Origin: Psychrobacter immobilis
GTDB taxonomy: Bacteria; Pseudomonadota; Gammaproteobacteria; Pseudomonadales; Moraxellaceae
DNA: 64,000 nucleotides
Assembly (NCBI GenBank): GCA_904846145.1
Contig: CAJGZL010000001.1
Coordinates: 2,852,001-2,916,000 of the forward strand
Reading direction: 5' to 3'
The translations under genes and the position numbers were made by a program. The notes below the pieces were generated by a model. The model did no database searches and was not told where the DNA came from. It saw only the letters and a list, made by a program, of their open reading frames with translations. Of the stretch, positions 60,481 to 63,817 are shown piece after piece (position 1 is the stretch's first letter; every line of letters begins with the position of its first letter).

Positions 60481-62370
60481 TTACTGTGCAGGTTGTTGTT
60501 TATTCGCATCAGCATCCGCTTGTGCTTTTTCGCGCACTCGAATACCTAGATCACGTAACTGTTTGCTATCGACACCAGCAGGTGCTTGAGTCAGAGGACA
60601 TTCAGCGGTCTTAGTTTTTGGGAAAGCGATCACATCACGAATAGAGTCTGCGCCAACCATCAACATAATCAGACGATCCAGTCCAAAGGCCAGACCACCA
60701 TGCGGCGGCGCACCGAATTTGAGGGCATCTAACAAGAAGCCAAATTTGTCTTCGGCTTCTTGTTCGCCGATACCCAAAGCTTCGAGCACTGCTTGCTGCA
60801 TGTCATAGGTATTGATACGTAAGCTACCACCACCGACTTCAGTACCGTTTAGCACCATATCATAAGCGATAGATAGGGCAGCAGCTGGATCTGTTTTTAA
60901 TGCTTCAACTGAGCCTTTAGGTTTAGTAAACGGATGATGCATGGACGTCCACTTGCCATCATCAGTCTCTTCAAACATTGGAAAGTCAGTGACCCATAAC
61001 GGTGCCCACTCGCAAGTTTGCATCTCAAGGTCGAGGCCGATTTTCTGACGTAGCGCGCCCATCGCATCATTGACGATACTAGCTTTGTCCGCACCGAAGA
61101 AGATGATATCGCCATCTTCTGCTTGTGTGCGCTCAATAAGACTATTAAGTACTTCATCGGTCATGTTTTTGATGATAGGGGATTGTAGACCTGAGTCTTT
61201 ATCGACACCATTATTGATGTTGCTTGCATCGTTGACTTTGATATAAGCCAAACCGCGCGCGCCGTAGATACCCACAAACTTGGTATAAGCATCGATCTGC
61301 TTACGGCTTAGCGCGGCACCATTAGGAATACGTAGTGCGGCAACGCGACCTTTTGGATCGTTAGCGGGACCAGCAAATACTTTGAAGTCAACATCCTTCA
61401 TCAAGTCGGCAACGTCTTGTAGTTTCAATGGGATACGCAAATCTGGCTTGTCGGAGGCATAATCACGCATTGCCTCAGCATAAGTCATACGTGGGAATGT
61501 CTCAAAATCAACATCCAACATCGTCTTGAATACATGCTTGATGAGACCTTCGTTGATACTCATGATCTCCTCTTCATTCAAAAATGAAGTCTCGATATCC
61601 ACTTGGGTAAATTCAGGTTGACGATCGGCACGTAAATCTTCATCACGGAAGCACTTCGCGATCTGATAGTAGCGATCAAAGCCTGACACCATCAATAACT
61701 GCTTAAATAGCTGCGGCGACTGTGGTAGCGCAAAAAAGTTACCTGGACGCGTACGTGACGGTACAAGGTAGTCACGCGCACCCTCAGGAGTGGCACGAGT
61801 TAAGATAGGCGTTTCAACATCTAAGAAGCCATGATCATCTAAATAACGACGAATGGCAGAGGTGGCGCGAGCACGGAAAACCATACGCTCTTGCATCTGG
61901 GGGCGACGCATATCAAGGTAGCGATATTTTAGGCGTAGATCTTCAGAGACGGTCATATTCTCATCATTGAGCGGGAAAGGCGGGGTTTCAGACTTTGCTA
62001 ACACCTCAATCTCTTTGCCCAATAGCTCTACTAGACCACTGGTCATGTTTTTGTTTTCAGTACCTTCGTAACGACGACGCACACGGCCTGTTATTTTGAG
62101 GACATATTCAGGGCGAACCGCGTCAGCGGTGGCGAAAGCTTCAGGAGTGTCTGGATCGACAACCACTTGTAAGATACCTGCACGGTCACGCATATCTAAA
62201 AAGATAACGCCACCATGATCACGGCGACGATGCACCCAGCCGACGATAGTGATCGTTTGCTCAAGTAAATTTTCATTTACTGCGCCGCAATATTCATCGC
62301 GATAGCTACTATGTACGCTCATTTCACTTTCGGTAATAGATTTAGGTTGCTCAATGCTGCTGTCGGTCAT
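60481..62370 (-). CDS. aspS: Aspartyl-tRNA synthetase
   Basis: AspRS charges tRNA-Asp. The protein shows the class II anticodon-binding domain ([21 protein letters not shown]), the motif 2 region [20 protein letters not shown], the bacterial insertion domain (residues about 290-430), and motif 3 at [13 protein letters not shown]. The C-terminal tail [15 protein letters not shown] is polar. I start at the ATG at 62370 ([11 protein letters not shown]); another ATG at 62322 ([13 protein letters not shown]) is also close to the normal N-terminus and could be used. It is divergent from sohB, with the 7-bp repeat tract upstream. Confidence 0.95.
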
Positions 62371-62603
62371 AATAATAGTTATCCAGTTGTCTGCCCAATT
62401 CAAAAAACAATAATGCAGCCATCGTTAAGAGATTTCAACCAATTCAACAGTAACTAGCGCCAGTGATAGGCCTAGTGTGTTTGAATTAACTCGTTTATCG
62501 ATAAATTCTAACGATTGGTTATATACAAAAACGATAGGTTACATAAAAATAAATGTAAACGCATATTATGCCTAATGTGCTTTTGTTATACAACTATACT
62601 TAT

Positions 62604-62666
62604 AGAACATAGAACATAGAACATAGAACATAGAACATAGAACATAGAACATAGAACATAGAACAC
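62604..62666. repeat. Tandem heptamer AGAACAT, eight perfect copies plus one degenerate
   Basis: AGAACAT is repeated eight times without a mismatch from 62604 to 62659, followed by AGAACAC (62660-62666). The tract lies in the gap between the divergent aspS and sohB genes, about 230 bases from aspS and 180 from sohB. A tract of pure short repeats of this kind is prone to slipped-strand changes. It can be neither coding nor CRISPR. Confidence 0.95.
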
Positions 62667-62699
62667 ACCTCAGCTTTTTATTTAGCGAGGTTTTATTTT
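62667..62699 (+). terminator. Terminator-like hairpin with no gene upstream
   Basis: CCTC-A-GCT and AGC-GAGG form a bulged 7-bp stem with an 8-base loop (62668-62690), followed by TTTTATTTTT. It has the form of a plus-strand terminator, yet no plus-strand gene lies before it; the repeat tract and aspS (minus) precede it. It might end a short untranslated RNA or attenuate a transcript that starts upstream of the repeat. Confidence 0.45.
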
Positions 62700-62728
62700 T
62701 ATTCGTTCGCTAAATATTGGTGCGGTGC

Positions 62729-62757
62729 TTGAAACTCTGTGACATCGTGCACATATT
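62729..62757 (+). promoter_or_regulatory. Possible sohB promoter
   Basis: TTGAAA (62729-62734), a 17-base spacer, and CATATT (62752-62757) form a plausible sigma-70 promoter 86 bases upstream of the sohB ATG, downstream of the terminator-like hairpin. The -10 box is only a partial match. Confidence 0.35.
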
Positions 62758-62842
62758 AGGCTGAAGGTAAGCAGTTCTTGCTAAGAAATCTTCCAAAAAT
62801 TATTATTATCTTAAATCTTATTTATATTAAGGAATACCGTTT

Positions 62843-63817
62843 ATGCTATTTCATCCTCCCAAGAACCCTGTTGAGCTCAAAGTGCTCCATCTCAATAAAG
62901 CCCGAGAGCAACGCCGCGAAGATTTACTTGAGGCAACTCAAGGCAAGGTGGCATTAAAACAGTTCAAAAAAACGATGGCAAAAAAAGCCAAGCAAGCTCT
63001 AAAAGTCAAAAACAAACGTAAAAGTAAGAATGACAGCCAGCAAGTATTTGTACTGGATTTTGACGGTGATATAAAAGCCTCAGCGGTCAAGCATCTACGC
63101 GAAGAGATTAGCACCTTAATCAGCACGGCGGATGCAGGTGATGAAGTTATCATCCGTTTAGAGTCGCCAGGTGGCATCGTCCATGGTTACGGGCTGGCCG
63201 CCGCGCAGCTAGTACGTCTAAAAGAAGCCGGTCTAAAGCTGACGATATGTGTGGACAAAGTTGCAGCCAGTGGTGGTTATATGATGGCTTGTGTCGCTGA
63301 CAAAATTGTCGCAGCCCCTTTTGCGGTTATTGGTTCAATTGGTGTGGTATCACAGCTACCAAACTTCCATAAATGGCTCAAAAACCACGACGTTGATTAT
63401 GAGCAATTTACCGCAGGTGACTATAAGCGCACCGTGACCGTATTTGGTGAAAACGATGACGAAGATCGCGCCAAGTACCAACAAGAGCTTGAGCAAACCC
63501 ATGAGCTGTTTAAGCATTTCGTCAACACTTATCGCTCTCAGCTTGATCTTGACAAAGTCGCTACGGGTGAGCATTGGTATGGTGAAGATGCGCTAAAATT
63601 AAAACTAGTGGATAAACTACAAACCTCTGATAGCTATATTTTAGAGCTAATGGCAGATAATGAAGTCTATGCGCTGCATTCTCGTCAAAAACCAACCTTA
63701 GCCGAAAAATTAGGCTTAGCACAAGCGGCAGAGGCAACGCTTAATATAGCAGTAGATAAACTGCCTGACGCCCTAGCGCGTTTGGACTTTAATAATCGAT
63801 TCAATATTTTAAAGTAG
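62843..63817 (+). CDS. sohB: Peptidase S49, SohB-like, without N-terminal membrane segment
   Basis: The 324-residue protein has the S49 protease core. The catalytic serine is in KVAASGGYMMACVADKI, LESPGGIVHGYGLAAAQL is the ClpP-like front segment, and the lysine of the Ser-Lys dyad is in TAGDYKRTVTVFG. The C-terminal part ends RFNILK. Known SohB proteins begin with a membrane anchor; here the start MLFHPPKNPVELKVLHLNK is soluble and a TAA stop lies in frame five codons upstream. The ATG at 62843 has AAGGA 9 bases upstream, so the anchor really seems absent. A terminator follows. Confidence 0.88.
   Translation: MLFHPPKNPVELKVLHLNKAREQRREDLLEATQGKVALKQFKKTMAKKAKQALKVKNKRKSKNDSQQVFVLDFDGDIKASAVKHLREEISTLISTADAGDEVIIRLESPGGIVHGYGLAAAQLVRLKEAGLKLTICVDKVAASGGYMMACVADKIVAAPFAVIGSIGVVSQLPNFHKWLKNHDVDYEQFTAGDYKRTVTVFGENDDEDRAKYQQELEQTHELFKHFVNTYRSQLDLDKVATGEHWYGEDALKLKLVDKLQTSDSYILELMADNEVYALHSRQKPTLAEKLGLAQAAEATLNIAVDKLPDALARLDFNNRFNILK

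Follow-up and report, generated by a model that had tools for sequence, protein, structure and literature searches.

Does a perfectly repeated heptamer in the gap between two genes that are read away from each other act on those genes, or has it merely accumulated there? The window, which is the whole stretch of 64,000 nucleotides from Psychrobacter immobilis analysed here, raises this question between aspS and sohB. We approached it through the sequence and length of the array, its occurrence in related genomes, and its position relative to the promoter-like sites on either side.

The array and its length in two genomes

The array and the genes that flank it are as follows:

62602..62665, no strand assigned: perfect heptamer array (ATAGAAC)9.1 (sequence, Tandem Repeats Finder and chance test)
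60481..62403, minus strand: aspS, aspartate--tRNA ligase (NCBIfam, 868.7 bits)
62843..63817, plus strand: sohB, protease SohB (NCBIfam, 461 bits)

The longest aspS frame opens with TTG, and an in-frame ATG is found at 62370. The array lies in a non-coding setting, within the gap between the divergent aspS (minus strand) and sohB (plus strand). This arrangement is general in the genus: sohB is present in 105 of 105 genomes, aspS stands beside it in the DNA taken from 102 of the 105, and the two genes are divergent in all 102. The aspS start and leader (62366-62422) are conserved, with about 77-94% identity to relatives among the matches listed, and no known RNA family (Rfam) matched 62250-62950 up to an E value of 0.5.

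Tandem Repeats Finder reported the array with a period of 7 and 100% matches. Read directly in the AGAACAT register, the tract consists of eight AGAACAT units at 62604-62659 followed by AGAACAC to 62666; the repeat finder and the direct reading thus both confirm the perfect heptamer tract described by the first-pass annotation. The run of period-7 matches extends over 57 positions, against a longest run of 9 in bases 1-62500 and of 7-10 in 20 first-order Markov simulations, and about 1e-29 such runs are expected by chance in 64 kb. The array therefore shows one mark of a variable-number tandem repeat (VNTR), short units joined head to tail, perfectly or nearly so, to a degree beyond chance. 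No hairpin was found in the array on either strand.

No stop codon interrupts the minus strand within the array, where the translation repeats VLCSMFY, and three minus-strand frames of 22-26 amino acids span it; a change of three units would also preserve the frame. It is nevertheless barely conceivable that the array encodes a small peptide, since these frames consist mostly of the array itself and lie upstream of the predicted aspS starts, relatives lack the array, and TAG recurs every 21 bases in each frame of the plus strand.

The array differs in length between the two genomes that make up the strain comparison within the species. It has 9.1 copies in the genome analysed here and 6.4 in the other (G027), and the alignment contains one gap of exactly 21 bp, that is, three units fewer in G027. 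The constant copy number in related strains that the first-pass annotation set against its idea of a length-changing tract was accordingly not what these genomes showed. Because the gap is exactly three units and no point difference occurs in about 570 bp to the left of the array, we regard the array as a true VNTR, its whole-unit copy difference between strains being observed in two genomes. The presence of the same array at another length in the second genome also argues against an assembly artefact.

The array was altered while the neighbouring bases on its left were unchanged, as slippage predicts. Outside the 21-bp gap there are no substitutions at all between 62033 and 62707, possibly a trace of recent recombination. 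Six substitutions fall between 62707 and 62775, and the whole 5.5-kb piece around the array contains 250. A recent strain-to-strain exchange of the left flank could add to the contrast between array and flank. Length change is not special to the aspS-sohB locus: of the 21 tandem repeats in the window that could be measured in both genomes, 17 were the same and four differed, by -21 bp at the array and by +15, -16 and +3 bp at three of the 20 others.

Distribution and origin of the array

Three consecutive AGAACAT units, with up to two mismatches allowed, were found in only two of the 105 genus genomes, the one analysed here and G027, the only other genome of the species; the other 103 lack such an array. 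An exact three-unit match occurred in one of 149 family genomes, again the present one (41 of these 149 belong to the genus, and G027 is not among them). The orthologous aspS-sohB place in the 100 other genomes that have both genes contains no AGAACAT array. When any perfect array between the two genes was counted (period 4-12, at least about three copies), three of 102 genomes had one: the two of P. immobilis and one with a short AAAT run (L220, genome G043). The array is so far confined to one species among the genomes compared.

It is also alone in its own genome. The six exact three-unit matches there (seven with up to two mismatches) all fall inside the single array, and no further AGAACAT array of three units was found elsewhere; many arrays of one unit in one genome, the pattern of a genome-wide heptamer family, is not seen. 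A sample of 372 kb (the 64-kb window and a further 308 kb) contains two heptamer arrays, taken as perfect runs of at least 20 bp, and their units are unrelated. A perfect 8-bp array, (TTTGAGTA)9.2, was noted at L256:4985-5058 (G000 contig C2), on a 42-kb contig with plasmid matches.

The perfect identity of the units and their location between two promoters would suit clustered sites for a regulator that binds AGAACAT. We consider such a cluster most improbable, since no other three-unit array exists in the same genome, in the other 103 genus genomes or at the 100 orthologous places, and a regulon would not be expected to consist of one species-specific set of sites at one locus. Moreover, AGAACAT arrays occur in unrelated bacteria among the matches listed, as expected of recurrent independent expansions. 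In at least 120 distant stretches with AGAACAT arrays, 253 of 300 arrays (period 4-12, at least three copies) had a period of 7, and 125 of these 253 were built of other units; since the stretches were selected for holding a heptamer array, these counts only indicate that heptamer-rich genomes exist.

The relatives offer a view of how the array may have begun. After G027, the best intergenic matches were G101 and G076, which have CTGATAGAATCCTC where P. immobilis has CTTATAGAACAT and so on. Both carry a single unit-like heptamer, ATAGAAT, at the start of the array's place and no array; the array therefore most likely originated from one such heptamer. In G029, the closest relative when SohB proteins are compared (89% identity), CTGCAATC stands at this place rather than ATAGAA, which means that not every close relative shows the seed unit. 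The G029 sequence includes CAATC, as do 61 of the 95 genomes aligned there. Slippage from a pre-existing heptamer is the most likely explanation of the array's origin, on a ranking of relatives by intergenic match and SohB identity.

Promoter-like sites and the spacing between them

Whether the array could influence its neighbours depends on where it lies relative to their promoters. The sites considered were:

62588..62593, minus strand: predicted aspS -35 box TTGTAT, 8 bp from the array (conservation)
62565..62570, minus strand: predicted aspS -10 box CATAAT, 17-bp spacer (conservation)
62729..62734, plus strand: predicted sohB -35 box TTGAAA, 63 bp from the array (conservation and consensus scan)
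62752..62757, plus strand: predicted sohB -10 box CATATT, 17-bp spacer (conservation and consensus scan)
62410..62438, minus strand: TTGAAA-17-CATTAT, a second aspS promoter candidate, closer to the gene and more distant from the array (consensus scan)
62605..62609, no strand assigned: position of the NAATC motif in relatives, occupied here by GAACA of the first array unit

The block 62555-62594, in which the predicted aspS site lies, is conserved across the genus (95 of 102 genomes pass 70% identity). TTGTAT-17-CATAAT is exact in 94 of 102 intergenic regions and agrees at 11 or more of 12 bases in 101, against a mean of 0.14 in shuffles and none on the opposite strand. The predicted sohB site is looser: TTGAAA-17-CATATT is exact in 18 of 102 and agrees at 11 or more bases in 93, only 58 of 102 pass 60% identity over the whole block, and the relaxed pattern TTGAAA-16/17-[CT]ATA[AT]N occurs in 98, against a shuffle mean of 0.54 and 4 on the opposite strand. 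These counts are to be read with the fact that the TTGTAT and TTGAAA patterns were chosen after viewing the alignment and that the shuffles preserve base composition only.

A consensus scan gave six sites where 1.9 were expected, including the sohB site and missing the conserved aspS site, whose -35 box agrees with the textbook hexamer at only half of its bases; the aspS assignment therefore relies on conservation. As a control, the six scan sites agreed at 11 or more of 12 bases in 35, 4, 4, 93 (sohB), 2 and 63 (second aspS candidate) of 102 regions, and the conserved aspS site in 101. The second aspS candidate is exact in 35 of 102. A weak minus-strand match from the same scan, at 62830-62802 (11 or more bases in 4 of 102), would, if used in this species, transcribe through the array.

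From these positions we infer that transcripts of the predicted aspS and sohB sites start outside the array. The first-pass annotation had proposed that copy number changes would shift the spacing between promoter elements. The simple form of this proposal, promoter spacing within the tract, was rejected: both conserved -35/-10 pairs lie outside it with their spacers intact, and copy number changes only the distance from one -35 box to the other, which measures 135 bp in the present genome and 114 bp in G027. The same annotation held that start sites well outside the tract would speak against a role for it; the predicted sites point that way, as predictions rather than mapped starts.

A subtler role can still be formulated, in which copy number alters the distance or helical phase of the array's surroundings to the aspS and/or sohB promoters and gives graded expression in the population. 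Its supports are that copy number differs between the two genomes, that the array comes within 8 bp of the predicted aspS -35 box on its upstream side and covers the NAATC place, and that the distance between the -35 boxes has a mode at 90-91 bp (61 of 91 genomes); the last three also count against neutrality. Contacts of the alpha-CTD or of activators usually fall just upstream of a -35 box, and 71 of 95 aligned genus genomes have NAATC 11-15 bases past the aspS promoter block. If copy number does affect aspS, the most promising route left is through the NAATC place under the array. There is a precedent in the 7-bp repeats of Haemophilus influenzae hmwA, where more copies are reported generally to mean less transcript (PMC8262952, PMC2424069); those repeats, however, share bases with promoter boxes (PMC8262952), whereas the conserved sites here lie outside the array.

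The spacing data tell further against such a role. Among the 91 genomes with both patterns, 23 different distances between the -35 boxes occur, from 10 to 234 bp (five of the 91, at 10, 10, 10, 10 and 22 bp, may be chance pattern picks), and this range indicates that no single value is needed throughout the genus. Other distances in the genus (105, 118, 149, 159 and 234 bp) do not share the helical phase of 91 bp. The 21-bp difference between the two P. immobilis genomes equals two helical turns and would preserve phase; a multiple of three units arises by chance about once in three. In addition, neither aspS nor sohB is a surface or antigen gene. Graded tuning through distance or phase is accordingly unlikely. 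Still less likely is a heritable, slippage-driven tuner that, by covering the conserved motif beside the aspS -35 box and stretching the 90-91-bp distance, would set aspS and sohB expression and produce growth-rate variants.

The frequent 90-91-bp distance, measured over 62593-62729 and the orthologous spacers, is an observation in its own right and possibly means that, in part of the genus, the promoters are coupled or share a site for a regulator. Among pairs with 60-70% spacer identity, spacer length agreed within 1 bp in 78% of 287, whereas in the same identity band length was kept in 7% of 249 for the sohB leader and in none of 89 for the aspS leader; in the 70-80% band, spacer and sohB leader kept their length alike (93% of 294 and 95% of 62, respectively). 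Drawn from 1500 random pairs, with phylogeny ignored and with identities that drop when lengths differ, this comparison gives a hint of a constraint on spacer length in part of the genus. Since six array-free relatives already have distances of 111-115 bp, any real constraint had probably loosened before the array arose.

A perfect 10-bp inverted repeat (TATTTAGCGA/TCGCTAAATA, 62679-62688/62707-62716, 18-nt loop) was also found beside the array. Nine of its base pairs are retained in G027, and it is possibly an operator.

Taken together, we judge with a probability of about 0.8 that the array is a young, near-neutral heptamer VNTR that grew by slippage in a poorly conserved spacer between promoters; slippage, the promoter assignments and neutrality are the inferred parts of this reading. 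A pre-existing ATAGAA(C/T) heptamer between the divergent promoters would have expanded by local slippage, and array length would keep changing through slippage or unequal recombination. The conserved promoter-like sites and the transcripts predicted from them appear not to include the array, which is, for that reason, probably close to neutral. Harmless drift, which the first-pass annotation had offered as its alternative, is thus the best reading of the locus, and a modest effect of copy number on aspS is possible.

Significance and comparison with known heptamer repeats

As the probable product of expansion from one existing unit between divergent promoters, the array is a clear example of its kind, and it might be used for strain typing. 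Its importance would grow only if copy number proved to tune aspS, since contingency loci are as a rule described next to surface genes rather than translation genes. By title and the start of the abstract, none of the papers listed on Psychrobacter repeats and aspS promoters deals with the aspS-sohB array.

Heptamers are reported to be over-represented among bacterial simple repeats, and polymerase slippage has been offered as a cause (PMC4692102). Intergenic heptamers include GGGAATC in Xanthomonas and GGGGA(T/C)T in Nostoc, the Xanthomonas arrays varying between close relatives (PMC4692102, PMC6749651), and heptamers are also described as a source of abundant bacterial satellite families such as the GATAGRA satellites of Chloroflexus (PMC6749651). 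The present array resembles the Xanthomonas and Nostoc repeats in its heptamer unit and intergenic position, and the Xanthomonas repeats also in its variable length among close relatives. Unlike these many-array families and that of Chloroflexus, it is one array of its unit, and the unit is not G-rich. The TAACTGA repeats of Beggiatoaceae occur as 169 sets within a single genome, for the most part immediately ahead of start codons, and have been proposed to be post-transcriptional signals (PMC4679880). They are likewise intergenic heptamer direct repeats, some of them beside presumably essential genes (PMC4679880), whereas here there is one array, upstream of both predicted promoters.

The closest parallel comes from the hmw1A and hmw2A promoters of H. 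influenzae, where the copy number of the 7-bp repeat (ATCTTTC)n varies among isolates (PMC8262952, PMC2424069, PMC2651432). The hmwA repeats overlap the P1 and P2 boxes by some of their bases and sit in the 5' leader of the P2 transcript (PMC8262952). An overlap with promoter boxes or a 5' untranslated region is not seen at the predicted sites here, the array being upstream of both. The P. immobilis array differs from that of hmwA in lying outside conserved promoter-like sites, in standing beside genes for an aminoacyl-tRNA synthetase and a protease, and in being known from sequence alone. It is like the hmwA array in being an intergenic heptamer array upstream of a gene with a strain-dependent copy number, and the hmwA array is its nearest functional precedent.
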